46,027 nt of DNA from positions 1 through 46,027 of the IMG/VR virus record IMGVR_UViG_3300008267_001029. One strand, written 5' to 3'. Below the pieces are notes generated by a model. It was not told where the DNA came from, searched no databases, and saw only the letters and a list, made by a program, of their open reading frames with translations. Source of the DNA: a virus. A program made the translations under genes and the position numbers. Positions 1-34,467 of the stretch are shown piece after piece. The stretch's first letter is position 1, and each line of letters opens with the position of its first letter.

Positions 1-1
1 T

Positions 2-346
2 ATGGATCTAAATTTTGAGATATACAAGGGAAAATCCTTCTCAGGCCTTTGCAAGGATATTGTAAAGAATTCTGAAAATAAGAAGGATCAAATTGATATA
101 GTGGTTTCTGAACTTAGGGGGTTGATAAAGACTGTTAATGATGCGGTTATTATTGTTCCTCTTATTAAAGACTACTTTGATGTAGGTGTTAAGAATGATG
201 AACAACTTATCAAAATAGCGGCAGTAGTGCAAAGATTAGTTGCAAAGTCCGAGAATACAACCGATGGGTTACAAACCTTAATTTCAGAGGAAGAACGTAA
301 ACAATTGATGGATGAAGTTATCAAGATTAGTAAAACCAACGAATAA
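2..346 (+). CDS. Conserved phage protein of unknown function
   Basis: A 114-residue acidic, mostly helical protein that I cannot assign to a function. It has no signal peptide, membrane segment or metal motif. The middle (residues about 45-80, with VPLIKDYFDVGVKNDEQLIK) is the most family-like part and reads like small proteins that sit beside baseplate genes in marine T4-like phages; that likeness is from memory. The ATG lies at the very edge of the window, so the true start could be further upstream. It ends 2 bases before the next gene and is probably in the same late transcript as the baseplate genes, so a structural or assembly role is a guess from position only. Confidence 0.6.
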   Translation: MDLNFEIYKGKSFSGLCKDIVKNSENKKDQIDIVVSELRGLIKTVNDAVIIVPLIKDYFDVGVKNDEQLIKIAAVVQRLVAKSENTTDGLQTLISEEERKQLMDEVIKISKTNE

Positions 347-348
347 AC

Positions 349-2061: not shown

Positions 2062-2063
2062 TT

Positions 2064-15846: not shown

Positions 15847-18305
15847 GTCTTACTAATATATACAATGAGAGATATGGAACTTCAGTTGCAACCAATGATA
15901 ATTATATTGCTGTAGGAAACCCTCCTACACATGATTATGATCCCGCAGAGGGATTTTATAGAATTGGTGAAGTTGTTTTAATTAAAAGAGATGCGTTTAA
16001 CTCAAATTATTCGGCATCATATACATTTACAAAAAGTTTAGGAACTCAAACCATTTATAGTACACGTTTTGGTGAATCCGTAGATCTATCTGATTACTTT
16101 TTAGCCGTGGGTAATAGTGTATTGTCAGCTAGTGTAACAAAAGGGTCATTTGTTGATGTGTATGTAGTTGACTCTAATTATAATGTAGTTAGTGGATCAC
16201 CAGTATTAGATTCTGACTGCCTAGACGAAAGTGTTAATACTCAAACATATTCAAATAAACCATTTGTTACACTAACCGGATCTAATTCGTTTGGTACATC
16301 AGTTAGTATAACAAACAATTATTTAGCGATTGGCTCACCTTCTGAAAATAATAATCGTGGTAGAGTATATATTTATCAATTTTCTGCATCAAAATATAAA
16401 CTGGAATCTGTTTTGAATCCTGACACATCTATCTATCCAAATCAATATGGGTTTGGGTATTCAGTATCCATCGATAAAAAGAACCAAAATAGAATTGTTA
16501 TTGGAAGCAATCAACTTCTAAATAGTAAAGTTTATTTGTATCAATCTTCATCCGGTGGTTGGGGACTAAAACAATCATTTGCGCAAGTAACCGGGTCATT
16601 ATCGGTTGAAAATAGCATATTTAATTGGTATCCTATTTCTTTACAAAATTCAAGTTTTGGTAAATCCGTATCAATATACGACAAAATAATAGTTATTGGT
16701 GCGCCTACAGATTTAGTTTATTACGAATATTCTGGATCAACTATTCAAAGACAAAGAGGCGCCTTCTATGTGTATTCTACAAATGTGTGTGATTCTGCAC
16801 CAACAGGAAGTTATAATCTAATATCAAAACTATATGGTGATGAAAATACATTCAAGGATAATTTTCTGGGTGAATCTGTGTGTGTATACAATAACAATAT
16901 ATTAGTAGGATCTCCAAAAAGATACTATCCATTTGCTTCAATTTTTATATCGGGGTCGTTGAATTTTTACGAAAATATCGTGGATGAAAATGATTTCGGA
17001 GCATCGACCTTCTTAGGGCAAGTATTGTACTATAGTGTTACAGGATCCAATTTGGTCAAAATGACTAGTTATCCGATTTCTAAACGTAAAGAAAGTGAAA
17101 ATAGTCCTTTTCAAGCATTTGGAGGATCCGTATCAATTTATGGAAATAATATAGTAATTGGTTCTCCTGTTCCATTACTTAAAGATTATTATTTGGATGT
17201 ACCATATATTACCGAATCTGGAAGTGCATTGGTTACTAATCCATCTTTAGATTTAACAGGTAGTATCTATCTTGAAGGATGTGATGTGACATCAAGTGTC
17301 GTATTTCTTCAAATAGAACAATCGGTTACTTCTGATACCGGTACACCTGTATATGTATCGTTGTGTGAAGAATTACCAAATACACCATATACAGCAATTG
17401 AGGGAAGTGCATATATTTACAACACATCTGATTTACAAACCGATTTTAACATTGGTAATGTATTTTATAATAATAATAGAATCGTTATTAACAATACAGG
17501 CAGTAGTTTAAATTTAATAGCTAGAAATCCAACTGATCCAAATAAACCATACATTTACATGGATTATGAAAGTTTAGTTCAGTTGAATGAAAAACAATAT
17601 ATCTGTACTGTTGAACCAGGTGAATTTAATATTTCAACAAATCCTACAGCTGTTACAGGCAGTCTTATAAATTATGGAATTGTTAACAAGACCGACTTTG
17701 ATTTTAATAACTTGGATTTAATTCTAAGATATATTAACTATAAGATTACCTCTCCAAGAAGTGAACAATGGTGGAAGAATATGGTATCTGGCGATGTAGA
17801 AACAAGTATTCTTTCATTTTATAGTGGCTCCTATAACATCACAACTCCATATACCGGATCTTATTTGTCAGGATCAAGATTCCAAGACAATAAATTAACG
17901 GAACAATTGAAGTGTGTTTTGGCAACTAAGAATTTTGATGTTAATAGTGATGGAAGAGTAGACTTCCAAGATGGAAATGCAATTTGGAAATATTTCATTA
18001 ATAATCTAACATATCAAAATTATAAGAATTATACAAATCCAAATAGTAAGAGAAATACTTACGATGGAATGATTAAGTTTTTGAATGATAATACTGGAAA
18101 AGGTAACAAAGACTATATCAAGAAAGACTTTTTCAATTATCCATATAGTTCATCTATTGATCCAACAGGTTCTTATTTAGCTCCATATATTACCCAAGTA
18201 GGATTGTATAGTGGCGCTGATTTGGTAGCAATAGCTAAGTTGGCACAGCCAATTAAAAATAGTGGTGATTTACCTATTAATATTGCTGTTAAATGGGATA
18301 CTTAA
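15843..18305 (+). CDS. Seven-bladed FG-GAP propeller protein with EF-hand loop
   Basis: An 820-residue structural protein. Residues about 10-450 carry seven copies of an FG-GAP-type blade motif: YGTSVATNDNYIAVGNP, FGESVDLSDYFLAVGNS, FGTSVSITNNYLAIGSP, FGYSVSID...IVIGSN, FGKSVSIYDKIIVIGAP, LGESVCVYNNNILVGSP and FGGSVSIYGNNIVIGSP. Seven is the classic number for an integrin-type propeller. Residues about 590-605 (GEFNISTNPTAV) and 785-820 (TQVGLYSGADLVAIAKL) match the C-terminal module of the 356-residue upstream protein. Inserted between them, residues 699-710 (DVNSDGRVDFQD) form a canonical EF-hand or dockerin-type calcium loop. Propellers and calcium loops fit receptor binding outside the cell; that role is inference. 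The ATG overlaps the previous stop. Confidence 0.7.
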   Translation: MSLTNIYNERYGTSVATNDNYIAVGNPPTHDYDPAEGFYRIGEVVLIKRDAFNSNYSASYTFTKSLGTQTIYSTRFGESVDLSDYFLAVGNSVLSASVTKGSFVDVYVVDSNYNVVSGSPVLDSDCLDESVNTQTYSNKPFVTLTGSNSFGTSVSITNNYLAIGSPSENNNRGRVYIYQFSASKYKLESVLNPDTSIYPNQYGFGYSVSIDKKNQNRIVIGSNQLLNSKVYLYQSSSGGWGLKQSFAQVTGSLSVENSIFNWYPISLQNSSFGKSVSIYDKIIVIGAPTDLVYYEYSGSTIQRQRGAFYVYSTNVCDSAPTGSYNLISKLYGDENTFKDNFLGESVCVYNNNILVGSPKRYYPFASIFISGSLNFYENIVDENDFGASTFLGQVLYYSVTGSNLVKMTSYPISKRKESENSPFQAFGGSVSIYGNNIVIGSPVPLLKDYYLDVPYITESGSALVTNPSLDLTGSIYLEGCDVTSSVVFLQIEQSVTSDTGTPVYVSLCEELPNTPYTAIEGSAYIYNTSDLQTDFNIGNVFYNNNRIVINNTGSSLNLIARNPTDPNKPYIYMDYESLVQLNEKQYICTVEPGEFNISTNPTAVTGSLINYGIVNKTDFDFNNLDLILRYINYKITSPRSEQWWKNMVSGDVETSILSFYSGSYNITTPYTGSYLSGSRFQDNKLTEQLKCVLATKNFDVNSDGRVDFQDGNAIWKYFINNLTYQNYKNYTNPNSKRNTYDGMIKFLNDNTGKGNKDYIKKDFFNYPYSSSIDPTGSYLAPYITQVGLYSGADLVAIAKLAQPIKNSGDLPINIAVKWDT

Positions 18306-19213: not shown

Positions 19214-20110
19214 ATGTTAGAAATTTCCGTAATAGATACGCTTACAAAATTGTTCAAGCACAAACCATCCATACAAAAAGGTGGTGATGAAGCTCTATTT
19301 TTTTATAAAAGAAAACTGAATATTAATACCAATACTGGATATTATCATTGTTGGGTTTGTAATTTCAGCGGAAAGAGTTTTTCAACTCTCTTGAAGAAGA
19401 TCGGCGCTCCTAAAGAATATTTTGAGTTGCTTTGTAAACACAAAATTAAATATGATGCTTCAAAGAAGACCGAAATTAAGTTGATGTTGCCTGATGGATT
19501 TAAACCTCTTTATAAAGATAACTCTGATATAGAGTATAAGCACGCACTTGCATATTGTTTTAAACGAGGTTTAACTATTCATGAGATTGTAAGATATAAT
19601 ATCGGATATTGTTCAGATGGTAATTTCAGAAATAGAGTTGTTGTTCCATCATATGATGATGGTGGTAATTTAAACTTCTACTGCGGACGAGATTTTTACG
19701 AGAGTAAGATGAAGTATCGATTATGTGAGGCTACGAAAGATATTGTTGGATTTGAATTGTATACTGATTTTAATCAACCAGTAACTCTTGTGGAGGGTGT
19801 ATTTGATGCGTTTGCAGTAAAATACAACGCTGTTCCATTGTTTGGTAAGAACTTGTCCAATAAACTCAAGATCAAGTTGATGACTTATAGACCACCGAGG
19901 GTTAACGTGTTGCTCGATAATGATGCTCTGACATCCAGTTTTAGAATATGTGAATTTCTTTTACAAAATAATATTGATACATATTTGATTCGTTTAGAAG
20001 GAAAAGATCCGAATGAAATAGGACATAAAAAAACTTGGCAATTTATAGATAGTTGTGATAGACTTACAGAAAGTGAGTTATATAGTTTGAAGCTCAAAAA
20101 TATTTTATGA
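19214..20110 (+). CDS. DNA primase (gp61-like, TOPRIM) with an incomplete zinc finger
   Basis: A 298-residue primase. Cys46 and Cys49 (HCWVCNFSGKS) are the second half of the CHC2-type zinc finger. The TOPRIM catalytic core is clear: Glu194 and Asp198 in VEGVFDAFA, then DNDA around Asp235 and Asp237, then the GKDPNEIG turn. It would make RNA primers for lagging-strand synthesis. The expected first pair, a CPxC just before the Lys-rich KRKLNIN strand, is absent: residues 28-33 run LFFYKR where related primases have Phe-Cys-Pro-Phe-Cys-His-type sequence. So zinc binding may be lost, or a few codons were lost from the sequence. Start by ORF extent; no clear ribosome site. It overlaps the next gene by four bases (ATGA). 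Confidence 0.75.
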   Translation: MLEISVIDTLTKLFKHKPSIQKGGDEALFFYKRKLNINTNTGYYHCWVCNFSGKSFSTLLKKIGAPKEYFELLCKHKIKYDASKKTEIKLMLPDGFKPLYKDNSDIEYKHALAYCFKRGLTIHEIVRYNIGYCSDGNFRNRVVVPSYDDGGNLNFYCGRDFYESKMKYRLCEATKDIVGFELYTDFNQPVTLVEGVFDAFAVKYNAVPLFGKNLSNKLKIKLMTYRPPRVNVLLDNDALTSSFRICEFLLQNNIDTYLIRLEGKDPNEIGHKKTWQFIDSCDRLTESELYSLKLKNIL

Positions 20111-23100
20111 TAGTATTAAAAAATACCAACCAAAAGATCGATAATGTCGTTCATATCGCAGACATTCATATTCGTTTGACCAAGAGACATGACGAATATG
20201 TTTCTATTTTCCAGAAATTCTACGATTCTTTGGACAAAGTAAGAAAAGTAACCAATGCTGTATTGGTAGTTGCTGGAGATATATTTCACAATAAATCGGA
20301 TCTTAGTCCTGAATGTGTAAAAATCGGAAGTGACTTTTTAAAGAATTGTGCAGACCGAATTCCTACTATCTTAACTGCTGGAAATCATGATGCAACACTA
20401 GCCAACAAGGCCAGATTAGATTGTTTGACTCCCATCGTGGATAGTCTTAACCATCCCAATTTGTATTATCTAAAAGAATCCGATGTATTTCGTTATGAAA
20501 ATATTCTTTTCAATAATTTCAGTGTATTTGATGATCCCGAGAAATACTTGTTGTATGAAAAGATTGCGACAAAATATAAGAATGAAACCGATCACCACAT
20601 TGCATTGTTTCATGGTCCAGTAAACAGCGCTGTAACCGATGTTGGTTATACAGTTAGTAGTCGATCTATCACAAACGAGTTGTTTGATGGCCATCACATG
20701 GCTATGCTTGGTGATATTCATAAACATCAGATCCTTCAAGAGTTTGATGACGTTGATAATAAACCCATCATTGTGTATGCTGGTTCTATGATTCAACAAA
20801 ATCATGGTGAAGAAATCAAAGGACACGGATTTCTTCTATGGGATCTAAAGCGTAGAGTTTTTAAACACTATGAATTAATCAATGATTATGGTTTTTATAC
20901 GATTGAAATCAACAAGGGTAAGTTGGTAACTGATATTACTAATATTCCAAAGAAGGCTCGTATACGAACCATGTGTTATGAGTCTATTCCATCACAAGTA
21001 AAAGAAGTGATGAATGATTTGAAAGGTAAGTGTGATGTTATAGAAAGTACATTTATTCGTGTTGATGAACCAACAAATGATTTGACATTAAAGAATGGTC
21101 AGATCTTTGATATTCATAACATTTTTGATGTAGACTATCAAAACAAATTAATTGAAGATAACCTTATTCTTAAGAAGGTAGAGAAAAATCTTATCGAAAA
21201 AGTTAAGGATCTAAATAAGACTATAAACAATCAGATTCCGAAGGATAAAGCTCCTAAGAATATTAGATGGAAGCCTAAGACTTTTGAATTTGACAATATG
21301 TTTAGTTATGGTGAAGGCAATTACATTGATTTTACCAAATTAAAAGGAGCTATTGGATTGTTTGCACCAAACGCTAGCGGTAAGTCTAGTATCATGGATG
21401 CTTTGGCATTTTGTGTATTTGATAAGTTTAGTAAAGGATACAAAGCTTCTCATGTGTTGAATACTCAAAAGATGAGTTTCAAATGCAAATTTAATTTTGA
21501 AGTAAATGGCGTTGATTATTTTATTGAACGTGAAGGTGAAGCCGATAAAAAGGGAAACGTTAAAGTAAAGGTTAAGTTTTACAAAATTGAAAACGGAAAT
21601 GAGGTTCCATTAAACGGCGAAGCTCGTCGTAGCACCAACGATATTATTCGTGATTATGTTGGTACATACGAAGATTTTATTCTGACCGTTCTTAGTATAC
21701 AAAATAGTAAGGCTGGATCATTTATTGATCTTGGTCAGACTGAACGTAAAGATTTGTTGTGCCAATTCATGGGACTAAATGTTTTTGATCAATTGTATAC
21801 AATCGCCAATGAAAACTTTAAGGAAACCAATACTCTTTTGAAGAATGTTAGTAAAGATCAGTTAACAGAAACTCTACAAATGGTTTCTGGTAGTATTGAT
21901 CTAAATAACAGAAACATATTTCAATATAATCTGGATATCAAAGATCTTGAAGTCAAGAAAGAAGAACAAAATAATAAGTTATTAGAGTTGTCTAATGATA
22001 TAGTAAAGACCGCAACTTTTGATTTTGATATTACTAAATTGGAATCTGAAAAGACACAATTAGAATCTAAAATAGGCACATTCGAACGTGATATAAACGA
22101 AAAGAAGACTAAATTCTCTACAATTGAAGCTCAACTTTCAGATTTATCTTCTTCTCTAAAGAATTGTGAAAATATCGAAAATGATTATGATCAATATAAG
22201 ATTTGTAAGGATAACGAGTCCAAAAAGTCTTCTGAAATAGAAAAACTTAAAGTAGTAGTTAAAAACAAAATAGATAAGTTGAAGAAGTTGGAAGATCACA
22301 AGTATGATCCTAATTGTACATATTGCGTAAACAACGTCTTCGTAAAAGATGCTATTAAAACCAAGGAAGAACTTGAACTTGATAAAAACAATGGCAAACT
22401 ATTAGTAGAAGAATACAATATTATTAAATCTAAGTTGGATGTATTTGGAGATATTGAATCTCGTTATAAAGAATGTCAACGCATTGATGGTGAAATAGTT
22501 AAATTGGAAAAGGCTAAAGAAGTTTTGTCTACAGCAATATTACGTGATGAAAATTTCAAAATCCGATTACAAAATGATTTAAATGGAGTAATTCAAAACA
22601 TTGATACTTTTTATAAGAACAAAGATATCATTGAAAACAATTCTAAACTACTTGTTAGTGTTAATGAAGTAAAATCTATTGTTAAAAACATTGAATCAGA
22701 GATTAAATTGGTCAACAATAAATTGTTTAACTCGTCCACAGAAAGGGGTAAATTGGAATTACAGCACAAAACCACAACTGATCAGTTAAATAAGGTAAAG
22801 GAGTTGGAGGATTCATATGAAGCATATAAGTTATATACTGGTATAATCAGTAGAGATGGTATACCATATGAAATAATCACAAAAACTTTGCCTGAAATTG
22901 AGAAAGAAGTTAATAATATCCTACATCAATTGGTTGAATTTACTATATCCTTACAGACTGATGGTAAGAATATTATGACTAACATTGTTTATGATGATAA
23001 GCAATGGCCTCTTGAAATGGCTAGCGGTATGGAAAAGTTTATTTCTGGCTTAGCTATAAGAGTGTCACTTATTAATATTAGCAATCTACCAAGACCAAAT

Positions 23101-23295
23101 ATTATTTGTATCGATGAAGGATTTGGCTGTGCTGATAGTGATCACTTGGGTCAGATGGGTGCTTTGTTTAATTACTTGAAACACCAGTTTGATTTTATCT
23201 GGGTGATCAGTCATTTGGATCAGATGCGTGATATGGTTGATAACCAGATTGAAATAAAAAAAGAAGGTGGATATAGCAAAGTAGTATATAAATAA
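20107..23295 (+). CDS. gp47-gp46: Single-chain recombination nuclease: gp47 (Mre11/SbcD) fused to gp46 (Rad50/SbcC)
   Basis: A 1062-residue fusion. Residues 1-340 carry the calcineurin-type nuclease motifs of Mre11 in order: DIH (19-21), GDIFH (57-61), GNHD (92-95), FHG (168-170) and GDIHKH (202-207). Residues about 390-1062 are the Rad50 ATPase: Walker A PNASGKSS (421-428), long coiled coils, a CxxC zinc hook (Cys737 and Cys740), a signature-like ASGMEKF about residue 975, Walker B ICIDEG (Asp1003, Glu1004) and a switch-type His in VISHLD. In T4 these are two adjacent genes working as a complex for DNA end resection. Here both are joined by a short linker at about 345-390. No frameshift is seen at the joint. 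Confidence 0.9.
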   Translation: MIVLKNTNQKIDNVVHIADIHIRLTKRHDEYVSIFQKFYDSLDKVRKVTNAVLVVAGDIFHNKSDLSPECVKIGSDFLKNCADRIPTILTAGNHDATLANKARLDCLTPIVDSLNHPNLYYLKESDVFRYENILFNNFSVFDDPEKYLLYEKIATKYKNETDHHIALFHGPVNSAVTDVGYTVSSRSITNELFDGHHMAMLGDIHKHQILQEFDDVDNKPIIVYAGSMIQQNHGEEIKGHGFLLWDLKRRVFKHYELINDYGFYTIEINKGKLVTDITNIPKKARIRTMCYESIPSQVKEVMNDLKGKCDVIESTFIRVDEPTNDLTLKNGQIFDIHNIFDVDYQNKLIEDNLILKKVEKNLIEKVKDLNKTINNQIPKDKAPKNIRWKPKTFEFDNMFSYGEGNYIDFTKLKGAIGLFAPNASGKSSIMDALAFCVFDKFSKGYKASHVLNTQKMSFKCKFNFEVNGVDYFIEREGEADKKGNVKVKVKFYKIENGNEVPLNGEARRSTNDIIRDYVGTYEDFILTVLSIQNSKAGSFIDLGQTERKDLLCQFMGLNVFDQLYTIANENFKETNTLLKNVSKDQLTETLQMVSGSIDLNNRNIFQYNLDIKDLEVKKEEQNNKLLELSNDIVKTATFDFDITKLESEKTQLESKIGTFERDINEKKTKFSTIEAQLSDLSSSLKNCENIENDYDQYKICKDNESKKSSEIEKLKVVVKNKIDKLKKLEDHKYDPNCTYCVNNVFVKDAIKTKEELELDKNNGKLLVEEYNIIKSKLDVFGDIESRYKECQRIDGEIVKLEKAKEVLSTAILRDENFKIRLQNDLNGVIQNIDTFYKNKDIIENNSKLLVSVNEVKSIVKNIESEIKLVNNKLFNSSTERGKLELQHKTTTDQLNKVKELEDSYEAYKLYTGIISRDGIPYEIITKTLPEIEKEVNNILHQLVEFTISLQTDGKNIMTNIVYDDKQWPLEMASGMEKFISGLAIRVSLINISNLPRPNIICIDEGFGCADSDHLGQMGALFNYLKHQFDFIWVISHLDQMRDMVDNQIEIKKEGGYSKVVYK

Positions 23296-23296
23296 T

Positions 23297-24268
23297 ATGC
23301 AAATCACAGACACACTCACCATAGAAAATAAAACACTAAATTTTACAATAGCAGAAGATGGTGAGTGTGTCTTTTTCAAAGATTTTGGAATTGACGTAGA
23401 CTATCTTATTATAGTAAAGAGTTTAGATACAGATTTAACAACTAATATTTTAAATGTTAAAATGTCTTCTGAACACAACATTTGGAAATATGGATGGCCT
23501 ATTAATGTGACTGAAGCTGGTGATAATCATCCAGGTATCCGATTTGATATACATAACGTTAATGGTGATTTAATTCTCAAAAAGACATATAGATTTAATA
23601 CAACTCAGTTTAATATCAAATTAAAGTCAAATCCATATGATGTTACATATCATCCATTTATAACATTTTTATATAATAATAAGTTTAAGTCATTATGCAA
23701 TCTTAATGAAAACGATGTTGTATATGATTTGGGTGCTAACATAGGTGCGTTTTCTTTGTTTTGTTCTAATCAAGATGTTCGAAAAATATATTCATTTGAA
23801 CCAAATAAAAATATATTTGACTATCTCAAATACAATTGTGAGAAATATTGTAACAATGTAACTTTGTTTAAAAAGGCTATATCCAATGACTTTAAGCGTG
23901 TTTCGTTTGGTAATAATGAAGGTACATTAGATGTTGGGTCTGTGGCGTGTTCTATTGTTGATAATGGTGGCATGGATGTGGTATCTGCTATTAATTTGGA
24001 GACGTTTGCGTATATAAATGATCTTGAACTACCTACATTTCTTAAAGTAGATATAGAAGGATCTGAATATAATTTTTTTGAATCTATTACTAATGATTTT
24101 ATTAAAAATTGTCACACTATATTTTTAGAATTTCACAATAGAGATGAACGACTAAATAAAATTATAGATAGGCTTACAAAATTAAATTACAAAATGTCAT
24201 TTTACGAAGATTCTGATTATGTATTAAAGCAATCTATGGGTACTATATTTTTTATCAAACAACTATGA
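23297..24268 (+). CDS. FkbM-family SAM-dependent methyltransferase with N-terminal beta domain
   Basis: A 323-residue protein. Residues 1-125 are a beta-rich domain of unknown type (contains NIWKYGWPINV). Residues 135-323 are an FkbM-type methyltransferase: SAM motif VVYDLGANIGAF (141-152), the acidic strand end FEPN (167-170), and KVDIEGSEYNFF (250-261). FkbM enzymes usually methylate sugar hydroxyl groups. It starts 1 base after the nuclease stop and overlaps the next gene by four bases (ATGA), opening the sugar-modification cassette. The substrate is not shown by sequence; an O-methylated glycan is the natural inference. Confidence 0.82.
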   Translation: MQITDTLTIENKTLNFTIAEDGECVFFKDFGIDVDYLIIVKSLDTDLTTNILNVKMSSEHNIWKYGWPINVTEAGDNHPGIRFDIHNVNGDLILKKTYRFNTTQFNIKLKSNPYDVTYHPFITFLYNNKFKSLCNLNENDVVYDLGANIGAFSLFCSNQDVRKIYSFEPNKNIFDYLKYNCEKYCNNVTLFKKAISNDFKRVSFGNNEGTLDVGSVACSIVDNGGMDVVSAINLETFAYINDLELPTFLKVDIEGSEYNFFESITNDFIKNCHTIFLEFHNRDERLNKIIDRLTKLNYKMSFYEDSDYVLKQSMGTIFFIKQL

Positions 24269-26277
24269 AGAAGTTATTATTTGTCGCACCACATTTGTCA
24301 ACAGGTGGCCTACCACAATTTCTGCTTAAAAAGATTAAGTCTTTAATTAAAGACTATGATGTACACTGCATTGAATATGCAGATGTTACAGGCGGACAGT
24401 TTGTGGTACAACGTGATCAGATTAAAAATATCTGTGCTGCTAGGTTTTACACGTTATATGACAACAAGGAAGAAATATTAACAATTATCAACAAAATAAA
24501 TCCGGACATTATACACTTTGAAGAAATGCCCGAGTATTTCATGGATATGTCTCTTGCGTCTAAGATTTATGATAAGGATAGAAAATATTTTATTGTAGAA
24601 ACATCACACGATAGCAGTTTCAATTCTGATAATAAACGAGTTTTGCCTGATCAATTTCTTTTTGTTAGCAAGTTTCAAGAACAAAATGTAAAGAAACTTC
24701 CGGTTAATTCTAGAGTGATAGAATATCCGGTAGAAGTAAAAATTCGTAAGAATCGTGAACTGGGTCTTAAGGAGTTGGGTTTAGATCCTAGTAAAAGACA
24801 CGTAATGCATGTTGGTTTATTTACGCCACGTAAAAATCAAAAAGAATTTATAGATTATGCCAAAGCAATGGAATACGAGAATGTTCAGTTTCATTGTATT
24901 GGAAATATGGCTGATAACTTTAAGTTTTATTGGGAACCATTGATTAATGACTTACCAAGTAATGTAAAAGTTTGGGGTGAACGAAAAGACGTACATAACT
25001 TTTATAGTTGTATGGATTTGTTCTTATTTACTAGCAGAGGTCATGCAAACGATAAAGAAACAGCACCAATTGTTATTAAAGAGGCTATTTCTTATAATAT
25101 GGCGAGTTTATTTTATAATTTACCCGTTTATTTAAACAGATATTCTTGTTATGAAAATGTGTCTTATTTAGATGAAGTAAATTTTGAAAAAAATGTTCAA
25201 TCGATTCGTGATAGATTGTCGGGAGTTAAACCATCATACAAAGAAGATGATAAAGATTTCATTGCTGTTATATCAACACATCCAAACTATAAAATAGTTG
25301 AAGAAACAACAATCAAAGCTGTAAAACAAATTAAAAAAGCTGGAGTCAAAGTAATTTTGACATCACACTATCCTGTTAGTAATGATTTACAAACGTTAGT
25401 AGATTATTGTATTTATGATAAAAATAATCCAATGATTACGCACAACTTTTATGAAAATTGGTCGTTTATAAATCAATTTCATGATATAAGAGTACATTTA
25501 CCATCGTGTAGGGCTAATTTATATCATGGGGTAGGAGTTGCATTAAATTATTACAATGGAATATCTTTGGCTAAAACATTAGGATATAAAAACGTGTTTG
25601 CATTTAACTATGATGTTGTAATATCCGAAAAAGATTTTCTAAAATTAGAATATATAAAAAATTTAATGAAAACTAAAAAAGGTTTCTTTTTCTACGACAA
25701 AGCATTAGAAGGGGATACATTTAAAACAGTGTTTCATGCTATTAATACAGAATTTTATTTGGAAAATTTTGAATATTTTACACAAAGTTCATATGAAAAG
25801 TTTGTTAAAGAAAAAAATATATCAAATGGACTTGAACAATTTTATTATAATAGATTATTAGATTTTAAGAACGATCTATACATCGATTATTCAAACAATG
25901 AAGAGTCATTTTTTAATAATAGTGAAATTAATATGTTCTCTATGTGTGAATACCTATCGGTATTACCGATGACAAACAATCCAAATAAGTTTGTATGCAT
26001 AAGCAGTTTTAATAATAAAGTTGATAAAAAATATAATAGAATTATTGTATATAAAAATGATGTGATGATTCATAAACAAGAAAAAGAGATAGTATCTGAT
26101 GGTTGGTGGCATATTGAAGTTGACTTTGAACCAAATAATGAATATAAAGTAGTAAATACTTTACACGAATCAAATAAACTTGAAACATCATGCTCGGAAA
26201 CTATTTTAAAAGAAATTACGCATGTATTTTCTAAACTAGAAGACTTAAAAAACAACGGACATTTTACTGCTAAATAA
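24265..26277 (+). CDS. Two-domain glycosyltransferase (GT-B GT4-like plus GT-A-like domain)
   Basis: A 670-residue protein. Residues 1-320 are GT-B/GT4-like: N-terminal LLFVAPHLSTGGLPQFL with the Gly-Gly loop, VMHVGLFTPRKNQKEF (about 180-195), and the acceptor-side acidic motif region ETAPIVIKEAISYN (about 267-280). Residues about 345-560 look like a second, GT-A-like transferase: it starts IAVISTHPNYKIVEETTIKA and has FAFNYDVVIS (about 446-455), where the metal-binding acidic motif would lie. Residues about 565-670 are a small beta domain with SDGWWHIEVDF. Two transferases in one chain could add two sugars in turn. Donor and acceptor are unknown. The GT-A reading is weaker than the GT4 one. 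Confidence 0.72.
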   Translation: MKKLLFVAPHLSTGGLPQFLLKKIKSLIKDYDVHCIEYADVTGGQFVVQRDQIKNICAARFYTLYDNKEEILTIINKINPDIIHFEEMPEYFMDMSLASKIYDKDRKYFIVETSHDSSFNSDNKRVLPDQFLFVSKFQEQNVKKLPVNSRVIEYPVEVKIRKNRELGLKELGLDPSKRHVMHVGLFTPRKNQKEFIDYAKAMEYENVQFHCIGNMADNFKFYWEPLINDLPSNVKVWGERKDVHNFYSCMDLFLFTSRGHANDKETAPIVIKEAISYNMASLFYNLPVYLNRYSCYENVSYLDEVNFEKNVQSIRDRLSGVKPSYKEDDKDFIAVISTHPNYKIVEETTIKAVKQIKKAGVKVILTSHYPVSNDLQTLVDYCIYDKNNPMITHNFYENWSFINQFHDIRVHLPSCRANLYHGVGVALNYYNGISLAKTLGYKNVFAFNYDVVISEKDFLKLEYIKNLMKTKKGFFFYDKALEGDTFKTVFHAINTEFYLENFEYFTQSSYEKFVKEKNISNGLEQFYYNRLLDFKNDLYIDYSNNEESFFNNSEINMFSMCEYLSVLPMTNNPNKFVCISSFNNKVDKKYNRIIVYKNDVMIHKQEKEIVSDGWWHIEVDFEPNNEYKVVNTLHESNKLETSCSETILKEITHVFSKLEDLKNNGHFTAK

Positions 26278-26279
26278 CT

Positions 26280-28424
26280 ATGAAAATAATGCAAGTACAT
26301 TTAGGATTGTTACCAATTCCACCAAATGGTTGGGGTGCTATTGAAAAAATAATTTGGGATTATTATCTTCAATTAAATAAAAAGGGATTAGAGTGTGAGA
26401 TCAAATATCTTAATGATATAAGTTATAATGATAATACTATAGTTCATGTGCATGTAGCTAATTTAGCTAATGAATGTTATAAACGAGGCATTCCTTATAT
26501 ATTTACTCTACATGATCATCATGCATACTTGTATGGCAAAGACTCAAATGTCTTCAAAGAAAATTTACAAGCTATTGAGAATAGTGTTATATCTACATGT
26601 CCAGCAAAATATTTGGTTGATTATTTTGGTAGTAAAAAACTACGTTATTTTTCTCATGCGGTAAATACAGATATATTTAAACATAAAGAATATATTAAGG
26701 ATAACAACAAATTATTATGTGTTGCAAATAATGGTTATGCCAATAATCAATCATATGATAGAAAAGGTTTTACATTTGCAATTCAAGCTGCAAAAGAATT
26801 AAATTTACCAATTACAATTGCAGGTCCAAGTAATAATAAGAAATTTTTTGAAACATTAGATTCTTCGTTAAGTGAGTATGAAAAATTAACGAAAATTTTT
26901 GATTTAGACGAAGATGGTTTAATTGAGTTATATAACAAACATAGTATCTTTATTCACGCATCTGAATTAGAAGCTGGACATCCAAACTTAACTCTACTAG
27001 AAGCGATGTCAAGTGGTCTTCCTGTAATTGGAACTTTTGAAAATAAAAACTATGATGGCATGATTGTGGTTGAACGAAATGTTCAACAAATCAAAGAAGG
27101 TATAACCGATGTATTAAATAATTATGATAAATACAAAACAAACGCGTTAAATGCGGCTAAAAATAATTCTTATAATAAACGTGTAGATGAACTTATTGAA
27201 TTATATAGTGAATATACAAATAAATTATTCGCTAGTAAATTTGACATCGTGTATAACAATTTAGTTAAAAATAAAAATAAACCTATTTTAAAGACTGAGG
27301 TTTATTATTCATTTAATGATAATGCGTTTGTAGAAATAAAAAATTCTGAGAATATAGACGAAACTTTTGAAGTATCATTCAAAAATAGAATAACAAATCA
27401 GATACTATATAGCACAACGCTTAAAAATGGTTGGTGGGGAAGATGTGATTATTCGTACTATATACCATATAACTTAACAATTAAAAGTAATTTAACAGGT
27501 AAAACAATATTAGATTATGATTTGGATTTGACGGGGAAAAATGTTTTAATTCAGTATGATACACCAGCGCTGGGTGATCAATTATCTTGGATTCCGGTGG
27601 CCGATCAGTTTAGAAGAAAACATAATTGTAATCTATACGTCAAAATTCCAAATTTGATAGAATGTTTTAAAAAGAAGTATAAAAATATTACATTTTTAAA
27701 TATGGATGAATCTATACCAGACTTATTTGCTACATATAAGCCTGGGTGGTATGTAGATAATCAATCTATAAATGAAAAAAGATGTGTGAATGATGTTCGT
27801 AAACAACCTCTTCAAAAAGTAGCATCAGATTATTTGGGATTACCTTATTTTCCAGAACGTCCTTTGTTAGATTTTGAATTAAAAGCCTCCCCATATAAAA
27901 AACCAACAGTAACTATTGCCACACAAAGTACATCTCAATGTAAGTATTGGAATCATAAGGGAGGTTGGGATGTTGTGATAAAATACTTAAATGAAAAAGG
28001 ATTTGATGTAGCTTGTATAGATAGAAACTATAGCTGGGGTAATGGTGATAATATGAATGTTATGCCATCTAACGCAATAAATCTTACAGGTGATATGCCA
28101 TTAACCGAACGTATGAATCAAATTTATCATAGTAAATTTTTTATAGGTTTACCATCCGGATTATCTTGGTTATCATGGGCAATCGAAAAACCAACAATTA
28201 TGATAAGCGGATTTTCGTATGATTATACTGAATTTGATACTCAATACAGAGTTCAAAATAAAAATGTATGTATCGGATGTTGGAATGATAATTATTTTGA
28301 CAGAGGTAATTGGATGTGGTGTCCAAAATCCGAAAAAAAGGAAATATTTGAATGCACCAAATCTATTACTCCACAAATGGTTATAGAAACAATTGATCGT
28401 TTAATTAAAGATAATAATTTATGA
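26280..28424 (+). CDS. GT4 glycosyltransferase fused to an autotransporter-heptosyltransferase (BAHT/TibC-like) domain
   Basis: A 714-residue fusion. Residues 1-320 are GT4-like (LLPIPPNGWGAIEKI, then ELEAGHPNLTLLEAMSSGLPV with the donor-binding Glu). Residues about 335-420 are a beta domain with KNGWWGRCDY. Residues about 420-714 read as the bacterial autotransporter heptosyltransferase family: IQYDTPALGDQLSWIPV, SKFFIGLPSGLSWLSWA, PTIMISGFS, TQYRVQNKNVC, and the four-cysteine iron finger Cys664, Cys667, Cys681 and Cys692 (CIGCW, WMWCP, FECTKSI). In TibC the family moves heptose from an ADP- or GDP-heptose onto Ser of beta-solenoid adhesins. Presence in a phage, and fused to a GT4, is unusual. 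The acceptor here is unknown. Confidence 0.82.
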   Translation: MKIMQVHLGLLPIPPNGWGAIEKIIWDYYLQLNKKGLECEIKYLNDISYNDNTIVHVHVANLANECYKRGIPYIFTLHDHHAYLYGKDSNVFKENLQAIENSVISTCPAKYLVDYFGSKKLRYFSHAVNTDIFKHKEYIKDNNKLLCVANNGYANNQSYDRKGFTFAIQAAKELNLPITIAGPSNNKKFFETLDSSLSEYEKLTKIFDLDEDGLIELYNKHSIFIHASELEAGHPNLTLLEAMSSGLPVIGTFENKNYDGMIVVERNVQQIKEGITDVLNNYDKYKTNALNAAKNNSYNKRVDELIELYSEYTNKLFASKFDIVYNNLVKNKNKPILKTEVYYSFNDNAFVEIKNSENIDETFEVSFKNRITNQILYSTTLKNGWWGRCDYSYYIPYNLTIKSNLTGKTILDYDLDLTGKNVLIQYDTPALGDQLSWIPVADQFRRKHNCNLYVKIPNLIECFKKKYKNITFLNMDESIPDLFATYKPGWYVDNQSINEKRCVNDVRKQPLQKVASDYLGLPYFPERPLLDFELKASPYKKPTVTIATQSTSQCKYWNHKGGWDVVIKYLNEKGFDVACIDRNYSWGNGDNMNVMPSNAINLTGDMPLTERMNQIYHSKFFIGLPSGLSWLSWAIEKPTIMISGFSYDYTEFDTQYRVQNKNVCIGCWNDNYFDRGNWMWCPKSEKKEIFECTKSITPQMVIETIDRLIKDNNL

Positions 28425-30061
28425 AAATAGTAGGTAGTTACATGGGTCCACACGATGCCGGCGTAAGTTTAATTGAAAATAATCAAATTATAGCGTGTTA
28501 TACCGAGGAAAGATTCACTAGGATAAAATCAGCACACGCAGGTTGTATATTTCCAACCTTTAGTTTAGAATCTCTACAAAAAGATTTTAAATTTGACATC
28601 AACGACCCAAATGTAAAATTTGTGTGTGCTAAGCCTGTAGCTATTCAACTTGAAGAAATACGTAATATTGTAAAAAGTAGAGATGTTAAACTAATAGGAC
28701 ATGAGTATGCACACGCATGCGGCGCTTATTATACATCTGGTTTTAATGAAAACACATTAGTTGTTGCATATGATGGTGGTGATTGTGGCGATGATAATTG
28801 GACTAGTCTGACACATCAAAACTATGATCATTATAAACCGTGGAAAACTAGGGACGATAATCAAACAGCTTGTTATATTGTAAAAAATGGAAAGTTGATT
28901 GAAATTGGAAATAGACTTAAACATGGAAGTATTGCAAATATGTGGTATTTGATGTGTTTAATATTTGGTCTAACTCCATTAAAAGATGAAGGTAAAATAA
29001 TGGGTCTTGCAGCCCAAGGACATTTTGATCAAAAAATATTTGATACATTAAGTTTCTTTGTTAAAAACGATATGATAAAAGCATCGTGTATGATACGAGA
29101 AAAATATGTATCTTTGTTAGCATCATTATCGAACGAAGATGCTTTAAATTTAAAAAGAAATCTTGCATATAATCTACAATATCTAAGTGAAATTACAATT
29201 TTGGACTTCATTAAAAAATATTATGATGAATATGGTCCATTCGATAATCTATGTTTAGCAGGAGGCATTTTTGCAAATGTAAAAATAAATCAAAAGATAA
29301 ACGAATATCTTCCATTCAAAGATATTTGGGTTTATCCTGCTATGGGCGATGAAGGTTTGTCTTTAGGCGCTGCGATTGCATATGGAGTAGAACTTGATCA
29401 ATTTACAAATAGAAGAATTGATAATGTATTCTTTGGAAAGAAAACATCCGTTGAAGATACACAAGCCGATATAAATAATTTTCAAGCAAATTTTGGTAAA
29501 TCTATAATTTCAGAGGATTTAGATTTTAATAAAATTGGTGATTATTTGGTCGGAGGGAAAGTTATTGGTATATTTGATGGATCTACAGAATATGGCCCAA
29601 GAGCTTTAGGTTCACGTTCTATTATTGTAGAACCAACTAGAAAAGAAACGCATGCACATATAAATCAACGATTAAAACGTGATGACATTATGCCATTTGC
29701 CCCAATTATAATGGAAGAACATGTTGAAGATATTTGTTATGTCTATAAATCAAAACGTGCATCGGAGTTTATGACTCTGTGTTACACAATTAAAGAAGAG
29801 TGGGCTAATAAAATACCTGCAGTTATAAATTTTTATGATAATACAGCTAGACCACAAGTGGTGAACAAAGATAGACATTCTTTATTTCACAAAATACTTT
29901 CGTCATATAATTTTAAATCCAAGATACCTGTATTAATGAATACAAGTTTTAATGGTCACGGAGAACCAATTATTAACTCTCCAAATCATGCTTTGAAACA
30001 TCTATCGGAAGGAACGATAGATCTTTTAATTATCAACAACAAAATTTATAAATTATCATGA
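28421..30061 (+). CDS. Carbamoyltransferase, NodU/CmcH/TobZ family
   Basis: A 546-residue protein with both family domains. The N-terminal Kae1-like domain opens SYMGPHDAGVSLIEN, then has the metal-binding HEYAH (His94, His98) and the VAYDGG strand (Asp118), LAGGIFANVKIN and GDEGLSLGAA. The C-terminal YrdC-like domain contains YGPRALGSRSI (about 390-400), the PFAPI segment and VLMNTSFNGHGEPI. Length is normal for the family (540-600). These enzymes use carbamoyl phosphate and ATP to carbamoylate a sugar hydroxyl. It overlaps both neighbours by ATGA, so it is made with the glycosyltransferases. A carbamoylated sugar is the likely end product. Confidence 0.9.
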   Translation: MKIVGSYMGPHDAGVSLIENNQIIACYTEERFTRIKSAHAGCIFPTFSLESLQKDFKFDINDPNVKFVCAKPVAIQLEEIRNIVKSRDVKLIGHEYAHACGAYYTSGFNENTLVVAYDGGDCGDDNWTSLTHQNYDHYKPWKTRDDNQTACYIVKNGKLIEIGNRLKHGSIANMWYLMCLIFGLTPLKDEGKIMGLAAQGHFDQKIFDTLSFFVKNDMIKASCMIREKYVSLLASLSNEDALNLKRNLAYNLQYLSEITILDFIKKYYDEYGPFDNLCLAGGIFANVKINQKINEYLPFKDIWVYPAMGDEGLSLGAAIAYGVELDQFTNRRIDNVFFGKKTSVEDTQADINNFQANFGKSIISEDLDFNKIGDYLVGGKVIGIFDGSTEYGPRALGSRSIIVEPTRKETHAHINQRLKRDDIMPFAPIIMEEHVEDICYVYKSKRASEFMTLCYTIKEEWANKIPAVINFYDNTARPQVVNKDRHSLFHKILSSYNFKSKIPVLMNTSFNGHGEPIINSPNHALKHLSEGTIDLLIINNKIYKLS

Positions 30062-30585
30062 ATTCAAAAAATGGTTATTTCAACGTAGACTACGCCACAT
30101 CTATACCAAAATTAACTTTTAATAATATACCTCAAAAATATTTAAATCATGAATTGCATTATGTTATGAAGAGTGAAAAACATCAATATTATTCTACAGA
30201 TGGTGTAAAACCAGGATATTGGTATAAAAAATTAGACTTTATACCATTAGATTTTGATTTTATTAAATTGTATGCTTTTCAGATTGATACCGGTGTAGAA
30301 CTAATAGATGAATTACAATTCAAGATAACAGATTTTAATTTCATGTTTAATTTAAAAACCAATAATATAGATGAAGCAAATACTTGGTTTAAGTATATTG
30401 ATTTGTTTAATAAGGTATACGGAACACGTTATAAATATAGTGTAAATATAACTACATTAAATGAAAATTGTGATAATTATGAAATTTCCAGAGAAAAATA
30501 TAACGTGATGTACTCATTTCCAAAAAATGAGTTAGAAAAAATTTCATCGTTAGATATAATAAAAAAAATACTTGGTAATATTTAA
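30058..30585 (+). CDS. Unknown protein, last gene of the sugar cassette
   Basis: A 175-residue, Asn/Lys/Tyr-rich protein. Residues about 45-75 (STDGVKPGYWYKKLDF) resemble the beta-domain segments with a GWW motif in the two glycosyltransferases just upstream, so it may be a free-standing copy of that accessory or sugar-binding domain. The rest (85-175) is helical. No catalytic motif seen. Overlap of four bases (ATGA) with the carbamoyltransferase ties it to the cassette. Function unknown; the shared-domain idea is an inference from a short match. Confidence 0.5.
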   Translation: MNSKNGYFNVDYATSIPKLTFNNIPQKYLNHELHYVMKSEKHQYYSTDGVKPGYWYKKLDFIPLDFDFIKLYAFQIDTGVELIDELQFKITDFNFMFNLKTNNIDEANTWFKYIDLFNKVYGTRYKYSVNITTLNENCDNYEISREKYNVMYSFPKNELEKISSLDIIKKILGNI

Positions 30586-30606: not shown

Positions 30607-30625
30607 AGTGAGATGTTCACTTTTT
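30607..30625 (+). terminator. Weak hairpin plus T-run after the sugar cassette
   Basis: AGTGA (30607-30611), loop GATGT and TCACT (30617-30621), followed by four more T residues. The 5-pair stem is short and AT-containing, so it can act as a weak terminator at best. It lies between the cassette and the sheath gene. Confidence 0.3.
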
Positions 30626-30632
30626 CTGGCAC

Positions 30633-30640
30633 TATTTATA
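30633..30640 (+). promoter_or_regulatory. TATTTATA element upstream of the sheath gene
   Basis: Exact TATTTATA 32 bases before the likely sheath start at 30672, with a clear ribosome site between. Spacing fits a late promoter better here than at the other copies. Confidence 0.4.
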
Positions 30641-30657
30641 AATTAAACATAACTTTT

Positions 30658-30664
30658 GAAAGGA
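30658..30664 (+). promoter_or_regulatory. Ribosome binding site deciding the sheath start
   Basis: GAAAGGA lies 7 bases before ATG 30672. It is one of the strongest Shine-Dalgarno sites in the window and argues that translation starts at 30672 rather than at ATG 30613 or ATG 30712, even though the 30672 frame closes after 15 codons. Confidence 0.65.
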
Positions 30665-30671
30665 ATAAATT

Positions 30672-33600
30672 ATGCCAATACAAGAAGGTGGAAGATTTTC
30701 ACGAAGTAGCGATGCTTGAGCAACGTTTCGGTGTAGCTGATGGGGTTTATTATGGTCCATACACAGCCAAAGAGTATCTGATTCAACAAGGTGTAGTAAC
30801 CGTTGTACGTATCGGCGGTCTAACCGGATACTGGCAAAAAAATCCATTGGTCGTATATGCTGAACCAGGTTACTGGAACAGAAATAGTGACTTGGGCGCT
30901 TTGACCACATCATCATTCATGTACTTGGATAGTGATGCTTATACATCAAATCTAATTCTTGAATATAGTTCATCAGCAATTAGCTCAAGTACAACAGGTC
31001 TTCGTGGTAGTGTGTCAAATAGAGTTTCTTCATCATTGAGTATAACTCGCGCGACAAATACAGAAATAGATCAGTTCCTAGTGTCAATAGGTTGGCCAGA
31101 TGCATCAAATAGTTCAACACTATCAGCATCTCTAGCCGCATCTGGTAGTAAGGGTAAATTGTTCAAGATTGCAACTACAAGAAACAGCTATATCTTTAGT
31201 GGTTCTGTTGTACAACAAAGTAAGAAAGTTCAACCAAGTGGTGGTGCAAGCGAATATACATTAGCTAACTTTGACTACGATAAGTCGATTGTTACTGGTG
31301 TAGTTTCCGCATCTGTGGGTGCAACTAAATATGAGATCTCATTTAATACGAATGATTTGAAGGATACTTTAACTTATTACAAATATCTAAGTTCTTCATA
31401 TACTTTAAGTGGTGATGATGTAACTTATGGTTTGGTATTTGGTAAATATGCCGCAAACAATGTTCTAGATTTTAGTACCGCCACGATTAGTAATGTAAAA
31501 TCACAAGGTGCATTCGTATACAGATATGATACATCACGTTTGAGACTAAATGGTGTAGTTAATGGTAAGTTTGCTCCAAAAGCAGCTACAAGTAACTATC
31601 CAGTTGGATATAATGGTACAGGTGGATCACTAAGTGGTTCAGTATTGTATGCCGGTAAACAAGTAAATCTAGGTACAGTAACCACAACCAATAGTTCTGG
31701 TGCAAATACATATTTGTATAGAAAGATTACTGGTGTAACACCAACCGCTGGTGCATTTGCTGGTTATTACTATCTAAGTTCAAGTGTTCAATCACAAGAT
31801 GTAAGTCCAGAAGTTAAGATCTCAACAGCTTTCAACGAAAGTTCTGAAACCGTTGCTTATTTTTCAAGTTCAATCATCTCAAGTAGTAAGGTAACACTTG
31901 ATTACGATACCACTACATTTGATGTAAATGGTACTTTGTCACTATATAGCTCAAGCTTCAAATCTATTAGAAGTTCAACAAGTTGTGGTTCATCACTACA
32001 ATTCTTGGGTCTAGTAGGTGGCGCTTATGGTGATTTTGATGGTACATTCACAAGTCAAGATAATTCTGGTGGTGATCCATGTAATCCAAATACCTCTGCA
32101 AGAACCAAGATGGTGTTGGCTGTTTTGAATAATACTCAAAATGGTTCAACTCAGTTCAATAACAGATACGAAGTATTTGGTTTTGATACATCAACCTTGA
32201 GTCAATTGACAAGTTCAGTATTCCCATACAAGGGATTGATCAATCCAAACGAAAATGCTTATCAATTGATTTTGCGTTATAACTTCGCAAATGACGATGG
32301 TTCAACAAGTGCTGGCACATATGGTTATTATGACTTCACCCTAAATGAAAGTGATAATAATTATATTGCCAACGTATTTGGATTCGATCCTACAGCTGGT
32401 AATCCTGCTAAACAAATTGCTGGACAAAAGGTAGAAGCTGCTTACAACTACTTGTTGTTCAATGATAGTATTCAAAGATTCGTTGCAGAAAAGACTCGTC
32501 CAAGTGCAGAAGGTGGTGGTTGGAAGTTATCTGCTAAAACTGCTCCTGAAACAGGATTTGCAGTTGGTGAACCACTCAAGTTTGTTGATCAATATAGCAC
32601 AAATTTGAATGCAGGTGATAGTCAATTCGGTATTACAAATGCTTATACTCCATGGATTTATTCTCAAAGAATTGCTCCATTTAAGGGTAGTGCTGCGGCT
32701 GCTTCTACACCAACTAAGTTCCAATTGTTTAAAGTACATACTCTAAGTGATGGTACTTTGAGTAACAAGAAGTACAAGATTGAAATAAGCAACGTTAAGT
32801 TGTCTGGTACAGTCCCAGGCAGTGATTGGGGTTCATTCACACTAGCAGTACGTGCTTATAGTGATACAGATAAACGTCCAAAGTATTTGGAAATTTATCA
32901 AAACTTGAATCTAAATCCTGAATCTGCTAACTTCGTTGCTCGCAGAATTGGTGATAGATATGCTTACATTACATTCGCTGGTAAGATCATCGAGTTTGGT
33001 ACATATGCCAACTTGAGTCAGTTCATCAGAATTGAAATGGCTGATGGTCTATATCCAGAAGTATCCGTTCCATATGGATTTGAATCTTATTCAACTCCAG
33101 TTGCTGGTACTTTGGCAGATATTATTCCACCAGTAAGATACAGCAAAGCAAGTATCTGGTCATTGGCTCCTGGTAAATATGCTTGTGGTACGGTCTTCAA
33201 CGATGTTCCTCAAGCTGACGACGAATTGGTATCATTGTATCCAACATCATCTGCTAATGTAGGTGTATATAACGATACATATCAATACTTCAAACCACTA
33301 CCAAGTAGTGTAAATGGTATCAACATTGACTTCGACTTGGAAGACAAGACTTGGGGTACTGATAGTGCTAAGTTCTATGCAAATGGAACTGGTTCACTAC
33401 TATCTCCAACATTGAGTGGTAGTATTCCAAGTAACTACGATCCAGTTAACGAATCAACTTATGTTAAACTACGTAAGTTCTTGGTTGGATTCCAAGGTGG
33501 ATTTGAAGGTCAATGGCCAGCAATTCCAATCGCTATTGGAAGTGATATTACCGCTGGTAATACACAAGGTCTAGATTGTACAAATATCAACAGCCCAGGT

Positions 33601-34467
33601 AGTATTGCTTATAAACAAGCAATTGCTGCTCTAGGTAATGCTGATGAATTTGATATCAACTTGATCGTGTTGCCTGGTATCTTCCGTGAACAACACAGCT
33701 ACGTAACTGAGATTACTATCGATATGTGCGAAGCTCGTGGTGATTGTTTCTACATCATGGATAACATTGTGTTTCCAGCAAGTAACCAAACCGTTGGATT
33801 GATTGACTCCGCCATCAACAGCGTAGCAACAATTGATAGTAACTATGTAGGTACATATTATCCATGGGTTAAGATCCTAGATACAAATACCAACAAGGTT
33901 ATTAGTGTTCCACCTTCAGTAGTGTTGCCAGCAGTTTATGCTGCTAACGATAACGCTGCTGCTGAATGGTACGCACCAGCTGGTCTAAATCGTGGTGGTA
34001 TTCCAACCGCAGTACAAGTACTTGATCGTTTGACTCATAGTGAACGTGATACCTTGTATGAAGGTCGTGTAAATCCAATCGCAGCATTTCCTGGCCAAGG
34101 TATTTGTGTATGGGGTCAAAAGACTCTACAAATTGCCCCAAGTGCTTTGGATCGTATCAACGTTCGTCGCTTGTTGATCAACTTGAAGAAGTTCGTCGCA
34201 AGTTCAAGCAACTACTTGGTATTCGAACAAAACGTAGCTGCTACAAGAAATCGTTTCTTGAGCATCGTAAATCCTTACTTGGAATCAGTACAACAACGTA
34301 ATGGTATCTACGCTTATCAAGTTAAGATGGATGAACAAAACAATACTCCTGACCTAATTGATAGAAATATCCTATATGGTCAAATATTCATCCAACCAAC
34401 TAGAACTGCTGAATTCATCATCCTTGACTTCAACATACTTCCTACGGGCGCTCAATTTTCTGCCTAA
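30672..34467 (+). CDS. gp18: Tail sheath protein, gp18-like, with an N-terminal frame change
   Basis: Major contractile-tail sheath subunit. The C terminus (34240-34460) is diagnostic: VNPYLESVQQRNGIYAYQV, then DEQNNTPDLIDRNILYG and IFIQPTRTAEFIILDF. Near the N terminus, EQRFG, YTAKEYLIQQG and VVTVVRIGG match gp18 positions about 50-80. The protein is about 1260 residues against 659 in T4, because of long Ser/Gly/Thr-rich beta insertions. Start is a problem. ATG 30672 with a good ribosome site encodes MPIQEGGRFSRSSDA and stops at TGA 30717. The main frame, open from 30613, needs a +1 shift or restart at ATG 30712. About 35 residues expected before EQRFG, with the usual Pro-Gly-Val arm, are missing. 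Confidence 0.85.

Follow-up and report, generated by a model that had tools for sequence, protein, structure and literature searches.

A putative protein O-glycosylation cassette of a marine phage, built around a TibC/Aah-type O-heptosyltransferase and located at a variable site next to the tail sheath gene

IMG/VR record IMGVR_UViG_3300008267_001029 is a 46,027-base fragment of a marine phage (hereafter the window, meaning the whole stretch of DNA that was analysed). It contains a cassette of five open reading frames (ORFs) at positions 23297-30585, all on the plus strand, between a fused Mre11-Rad50 nuclease gene and the tail sheath gene. The C-terminal half of ORF3 can be firmly assigned by its sequence to the TibC/Aah family of protein O-heptosyltransferases (BAHT), and we consider it reasonably probable that the cassette is a phage protein O-glycosylation module acting on a collagen-like fibre, with the glycan being subsequently methylated and carbamoylated. 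The DNA confirmed the five ORFs where an earlier sequence-only reading had placed them, including ATGA overlaps at the ORF1/2, ORF3/4 and ORF4/5 junctions and a 2-base gap between ORF2 and ORF3, and the nuclease gene stops 1 base 5' of ORF1. The Pfam and PHROG matches of the flanking genes agree with the location proposed in that reading, between recombination genes on the left and tail genes on the right. Since the same gene set recurs at the same site in independent contigs, with protein identities of 50-82%, the cassette is neither a chance arrangement nor an assembly accident.

The C-terminal half of ORF3 scored 315.6 bits with TIGR04414, the equivalog model for TibC/Aah autotransporter O-heptosyltransferases (cut-off 200), and TibC (PDB 4rap) aligned to it over TibC residues 23-386, approximately 370 residues, with an E-value of 5.8e-66. 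This phmmer alignment takes in the N-terminal beta-barrel (TibC 1-97) from residue 23 onwards, by which we count the barrel as present; the Pfam family of the barrel, PF21129, is not listed among the Pfam matches of the window. The sequence-only reading had called this half a heptosyltransferase, which stands, except that the enzyme falls in the protein O-heptosyltransferase family instead of the lipopolysaccharide (LPS) type. As a candidate LPS heptosyltransferase I (WaaC/RfaC), it reached 21.6 bits with TIGR02193, against a cut-off of 185.3. In TibC, D110 is the catalytic base, T226, K230, R286 and W305 are donor contacts shown or proposed as needed, P300 selects ADP-D,D-heptose, and heptosylation requires D110, R286, W305, K230 and each of the four iron-finger cysteines (PMC4358343). 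The window keeps D110, T226, K230, R286, W305 and P300 as well as the cysteines corresponding to TibC C339, C342, C358 and C370; in ORF3 the catalytic base is Asp433 and the iron finger comprises Cys664, Cys667, Cys681 and Cys692. In a survey of 62 non-redundant viral BAHT copies, D110 was kept in 61, the remaining copy having a gap, and the four cysteines and W305 were kept in all 62. R286 and P300 are rare in viral copies (P300 is proline in 5 of the 62), and because the window keeps both, its clade appears to be unusually TibC-like. The GT4 domain fused to the N-terminal side of this half might alter the ring-shaped dodecamer of BAHT.

The FkbM, GT4 and carbamoyltransferase domains named in the sequence-only reading, and its small ORF5 without a family, are borne out by the profile scores. 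ORF2 consists of a glycosyltransferase (GT) domain of family GT4 followed by a C-terminal half, designated O2C. A PDB search with the ORF2 alignment gave no sequence match. The AlphaFold2 model of O2C, computed from a 30-row alignment, has a predicted local distance difference test (pLDDT) score of 91.4, and comparison with known structures gave VIA-align Z scores of 14.5 for B4GALNT1, 14.2 for WrtF and 13.2 for glycogenin. The model thereby places O2C among the GT-A-fold nucleotide-sugar transferases, where many families tie and no donor is assigned. In about 30 phage loci, O2C either neighbours BAHT or forms part of the same protein. Gene grouping placed ORF2-type genes in 25 of 59 loci, in most cases immediately 5' of BAHT. 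ORF1, an FkbM methyltransferase (TIGR01444, 70.3 bits, cut-off 37.7; PF05050, 47.8 bits), shows 58-60% identity to its relatives, where ORF2 to ORF4 reach 70-82%; judging from these comparisons it is a fast-diverging family member and an optional finishing gene, missing in relatives L007 and L019. ORF4 matches the NodU/TobZ-type O-carbamoyltransferases (PF16861, 170.5 bits, and PF02543, 115.6 bits, both above the gathering scores; phrog_1601, 302 bits), with PDB matches to 7xb6 (E 5.8e-40) and TobZ 3ver (E 4.7e-31), and likewise appears to be an optional finishing gene. The narrow equivalog for the NodU nodulation protein, NF041651, was rejected for ORF4, with 109.9 bits where at least 1000 are required. 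ORF5 has no match in Pfam, NCBIfam or PHROG, and its structure model is unreliable (pLDDT 43). Among the relatives examined, it was found only where ORF4 is also present: it accompanies ORF4 in L001 and L005-L009, and both are missing in L019, L282, L284 and L294. A "GWW" beta domain common to ORF1, ORF2, ORF3 and ORF5 was also considered and rejected, as profile-profile probabilities were below 1%.

In the mechanism that we propose, the BAHT half of ORF3 would transfer the first sugar, a heptose or related sugar, from an ADP-sugar onto serine or threonine of a phage structural protein. The two GT4 domains, in ORF2 and ORF3, and the GT-A domain of ORF2 would lengthen this sugar, after which FkbM would O-methylate and the carbamoyltransferase O-carbamoylate the finished glycan. 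The co-location of four coupled GT domains with the two finishing enzymes fits the short, methylated and carbamoylated glycan suggested in the sequence-only reading, the individual steps and their order being inferred. That reading had left the acceptor open between virion proteins, the host surface and DNA. A protein serine or threonine is predicted because the C-terminal half of ORF3 is of the TibC/Aah family, and an association with repeat proteins, described below, points to collagen-like virion proteins. The likeliest acceptor would be a fibre with (Gly-Ser/Thr-Ser/Thr)n repeats, and the adjacent sheath would be a secondary candidate. The coat may serve to shield the fibre or to change its recognition.

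The classical enzyme-acceptor pair of this family, TibC-TibA or Aah-AIDA-I, is not claimed for the window: the strand-loop-strand repeats of AIDA and TibA (TIGR04415) were above cut-off in 0 of 50 phage records, which are fragments, and some bacterial BAHT loci do show AIDA-type repeats in a simple motif count. What sits near phage BAHTs are collagen-like proteins with extreme (G-[ST]-[ST])n repeats. All statistics on this association ignore phylogeny. In a neutral sample of 45 records picked by Mre11-Rad50 or terminase, the repeats occurred in 7 of 13 records with BAHT and in 2 of 32 without (p=0.001), and in records of at least 100 kb in 3/3 versus 0/11 (p=0.003). Conversely, when records were sampled by the repeat pattern (excluding G026, which was already known), BAHT was found in 14 of 23 records of at least 60 kb, versus 3 of 22 neutral repeat-free records (p=0.001), and in 9/13 versus 0/11 at a size of at least 100 kb (p=0.0005). 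Pfam Collagen was above cut-off in 10 of 11 large records with BAHT and in none of the 11 without, a scan that detects collagen-like proteins in general and cannot tell Ser/Thr-type repeats from other collagen types. A repeat gene lay within about 10 kb of BAHT in 27 of 58 phage loci, compared to 1 of 74 BAHT-less Mre11-Rad50 loci; the p-value of this local comparison, 5.5e-11, is not to be taken at face value, as the two locus samples differ in lineage. On the longest contigs belonging to the clade of the window, 29-34 kb separate BAHT from the repeat gene downstream, a position that the window does not reach, and the repeat proteins of the close relatives G001, G002 and G005 measure 1130, at least 763 and at least 662 residues, the latter two being cut by contig ends. 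In relatives with an empty cassette site, only a weak match to a homologous fibre was found (G057, 39% over 65 residues).

The domain is widespread: scanning viral contigs yielded 185 confirmed BAHT-domain relatives. An N-terminal extension of more than 200 residues was present in 55 of 91 viral rows, versus 5 of 77 rows from the bacterial collection, all five on metagenome-assembled contigs. In a BAHT tree, phage and bacterial rows were clustered (9 label changes, versus 41 in shuffles); the branch that places the window's clade with respect to the bacterial one has a support of only 69, and neither one nor several acquisitions are claimed. Small GTSG-type repeat ORFs lie near BAHT on four bacterial contigs (Table 1), and three of these ORFs start, judged by eye, like lipoproteins; in the tree, the BAHTs of the four contigs are placed within the phage rows. 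Five phages encode, next after BAHT, an HldC-like adenylyltransferase and an HldA-like kinase. These correspond to the two parts of HldE, and NCBIfam matches them best with TIGR02198 and TIGR02199. As a separate observation, a BAHT frame with seven in-frame TGA codons, possibly reflecting TGA recoding, is present in a 164-kb repeat-carrying phage contig (G110:C1:85335-86378).

The content of the cassette site differs between relatives. It is empty in L283, L285, L286 and L298, where Mre11-Rad50 is directly followed by the sheath; L019 has only ORF2 and ORF3, L282, L284 and L294 have ORF1 to ORF3, L007 has ORF2 to ORF5 without FkbM, and all five genes are present in the window, L001, L002, L004, L005, L006 and L008. 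Other gene sets occupy the site in L070, L288 and L289, and in LR756508, a 484-kb relative without any BAHT, where the different set looks glycan-related by eye. The gene-order comparison that the sequence-only reading had proposed thus found the genes linked in relatives, whereas its suggestion that the block was inserted as a unit is not borne out, since relatives hold the core pair alone or partial sets. Because of this variation, we interpret the site as a hotspot with ORF2 and ORF3 as core and with ORF1 and ORF4 plus ORF5 as exchangeable finishing genes, the swapping of which would alter the outer chemistry of the glycan. The GC content of the cassette, 0.23-0.31, is slightly below that of the flanks, which is compatible with a mobile module and is not proof of one.

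Several points weigh against this reading. R286 is arginine in only 15 of the 62 viral BAHT copies, hence some other phage BAHTs, having lost this adenine contact, may use another donor. The HldE-like genes score below the curated cut-offs (100.2 bits versus 345 for TIGR02198, and 94 versus 181.5 for TIGR02199), neither the window nor G001, G002 and G005 have an rfaE-type gene, and a supply of ADP-heptose by the host is an assumption. The window itself contains 0 of the repeat proteins, the contig stopping short of the expected place. Four repeat-carrying records of at least 100 kb lack BAHT, and conversely the large BAHT record G027 and three BAHT-containing records of 62-91 kb lack the repeat, and the association could stem from a shared lineage or habitat. 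We know of no collagen-like protein among the acceptors of BAHTs. Finally, the methylation and carbamoylation steps are assigned by family membership alone. For the wider proposal, we see about an even chance: a large and so far unrecognised branch of the TibC family in phages, mostly fused to other GTs, would O-heptosylate or O-glycosylate (Gly-Ser/Thr-Ser/Thr)n fibres, a few bacteria would pair the same enzyme with small repeat lipoproteins, and swappable methyl- and carbamoyltransferases would diversify the coat.

GT4, FkbM and carbamoyltransferase genes are frequent in surface-polysaccharide clusters, and in infected cells the module could instead alter the LPS, O-chain or capsule of the host, perhaps to prevent superinfection. 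This is also how the GT and rfaE genes of SAR11 myophages have been read (PMC7029224). We regard such a role as unlikely here, as the LPS heptosyltransferase I model scores far below its cut-off while the protein O-heptosyltransferase model scores far above, the iron finger is conserved in every viral copy, and the locus is surrounded by virion genes, has the sheath as its neighbour and shows a correlation with fibre repeats.

Alternatively, the acceptor could be the adjacent tail sheath, with its large inserted domain and hydrophobic-SSS clusters, and not the distant fibre. In L019 the sheath gene begins 90 bp past BAHT, and L070, L282, L284 and L294 have it as the following gene; similarly, in 9 of 60 bacterial rows the BAHT gene precedes one for a large protein rich in Ser, Thr and Gly. 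The sheath of the window has 8 hydrophobic-SSS motifs, compared to 0.55 in shuffles, with 1-5 in other relatives that carry BAHT and 0-1 in those that do not. However, these counts are small and come from related sequences, L282 has BAHT yet a single motif, relatives with an empty site have an equally long sheath, and the enrichment, though clear in the window, is weak and variable in relatives, whereas the association with the repeats is far stronger, so that we consider the sheath quite improbable as the acceptor in place of the fibre.

There is a slight chance that the co-occurrence of BAHT and collagen-like fibres merely reflects how frequent each is among large aquatic phages infecting certain hosts, and that the enzyme acts elsewhere, e.g. 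on a host surface protein. The sampling is based on lineage, the records are fragmentary and some phages have one but not the other; nevertheless, the association holds in the set sampled by Mre11-Rad50 or terminase, in both directions and at short range, and it recurs in the four bacterial loci whose BAHTs fall among phage rows. Glycosylation of the phage DNA, a hypermodification that phage glycosyltransferases can perform according to work cited in PMC12619734, is hardly credible, given that BAHT is a protein O-glycosyltransferase family, that close relatives may have or lack the block, which is sited with tail genes, and that none of the window's genes was noted as a modified-base enzyme.

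Table 1. Cassette, flanking genes and repeat ORFs (window coordinates unless a contig is given)
Feature	Position	Strand	Length	Matches or remarks
FG-GAP-repeat protein	15843-18305		820 aa	
Fused Mre11(SbcD)-Rad50(SbcC) nuclease, left border	20107-23295	+	1062 aa	phrog_100, phrog_77, PF00149
ORF1	23297-24268	+	323 aa	FkbM methyltransferase
ORF2	24265-26277	+	670 aa	
ORF2 N-half, GT4 (GT-B)	24265-25239	+		PF13692 35.7 bits, PF00534 34.8 bits
ORF2 C-half (O2C)	25240-26277	+		GT-A-fold domain ~25246-25940, then beta domain ~25950-26230
ORF3	26280-28424	+	714 aa	
ORF3 N-half, GT4 fused to BAHT	26280-27281	+		PF00534 46.5 bits
ORF3 C-half, BAHT	27282-28424	+		Beta-barrel, GT9-like catalytic core, four-cysteine iron finger; TIGR04414, 4rap
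ORF4	28421-30061	+	546 aa	O-carbamoyltransferase
ORF5	30058-30585	+	175 aa	
Tail sheath, right border	30613-34467	+	1284 aa	PF04984, PF17482, phrog_23
Bacterial GTSG-type repeat ORF	L111:6654-7073			Adjoining BAHT
Bacterial GTSG-type repeat ORF	L113:9133-9438			Adjoining BAHT
Bacterial GTSG-type repeat ORF	L125:3596-3931			Adjoining BAHT
Bacterial GTSG-type repeat ORF	L173:1284-1940			Adjoining BAHT

With regard to the flanking genes, the fusion of Mre11 and Rad50 in one protein is kept across this phage lineage, including the isolated Microcystis phage Mel-JY01. The sheath, about twice as long as T4 gp18, has a very large N-terminal region rich in serine clusters. Near its start, at about 30700-30725, the window lacks approximately 120-140 bases that L001, L005 and L007 have, and its N-terminal reading frame differs from theirs, where mutation and assembly error are indistinguishable. 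The FG-GAP-repeat protein is encoded beside other tail-fibre-like genes, adjoining the recombination genes.

Two elements of the proposed system are already known, the BAHT enzyme family and virion glycosylation in mycobacteriophages. BAHTs are known as activators of Gram-negative adhesins. BclA-type glycoproteins of Bacillus spores combine Gly-X-Y repeats with O-glycans on threonine and a modified terminal sugar, although they involve different enzymes and sugars and a spore surface instead of a virion. The enzyme of the window resembles those of the TibC-TibA and Aah-AIDA-I systems (PMC4358343) in its catalytic core and aspartate, its ADP-heptose contacts, the Pro300-type donor selector and the iron-finger cysteines. 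Unlike TibC and Aah, the phage BAHT is fused to GT4 and paired with a GT4 plus GT-A protein, FkbM and a carbamoyltransferase, and the phage records have collagen-like (G-S/T-S/T)n proteins in place of an AIDA-type repeat protein above cut-off. In mycobacteriophages, virion proteins such as the capsid and tail tube carry glycans (Freeman et al. 2023, as cited in PMC12619734); other glycosyltransferases and acceptors than those discussed here are involved. The literature search found no paper on TibC/BAHT as a phage gene or on a link to collagen-like fibres. To our knowledge, the mycobacteriophage systems use no BAHT, heptose or FkbM/carbamoyl finishing. A protein of an uncultured Caudovirales phage with the O2C fold (UniProt A0A6J5SVC1) bears the automatic name "Glycosyltransferase Aah/TibC", a database name for which no study was found.

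An isolated phage with a closely similar system is Mel-JY01 (PP395634; L012/L011), which has colinear structural genes, the fused Mre11-Rad50, and a collagen-like fibre ORF beside a GT4-O2C-BAHT protein, WWT39291. In this phage the domains are joined in one protein of 1226 residues annotated as "methyltransferase FkbM", its BAHT lacks R286 and P300, and no carbamoyltransferase was seen beside WWT39291. The collagen-like ORF, of 1788 residues, appears to span the ends of the linear record (187687-190001 plus 1-3049) and to be unannotated, GenBank showing minus-strand ORFs there. The cassette also resembles the host-recognition cluster of pelagimyophages (PMC7029224), which are aquatic T4-like phages whose variable tail regions contain GTs, rfaE and collagen repeats. 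In that study the GT and rfaE genes were interpreted as modifying the LPS O-chain, and the BAHT identity and a fibre acceptor were not considered. If our proposal is true, numerous aquatic phages put a chemical coat on their appendages and can change it via gene exchange at one hotspot. The extreme composition of the Ser/Thr-Gly repeats would then be explained, and the GT and rfaE genes of aquatic phages, usually read as acting on LPS, would instead serve the virion.

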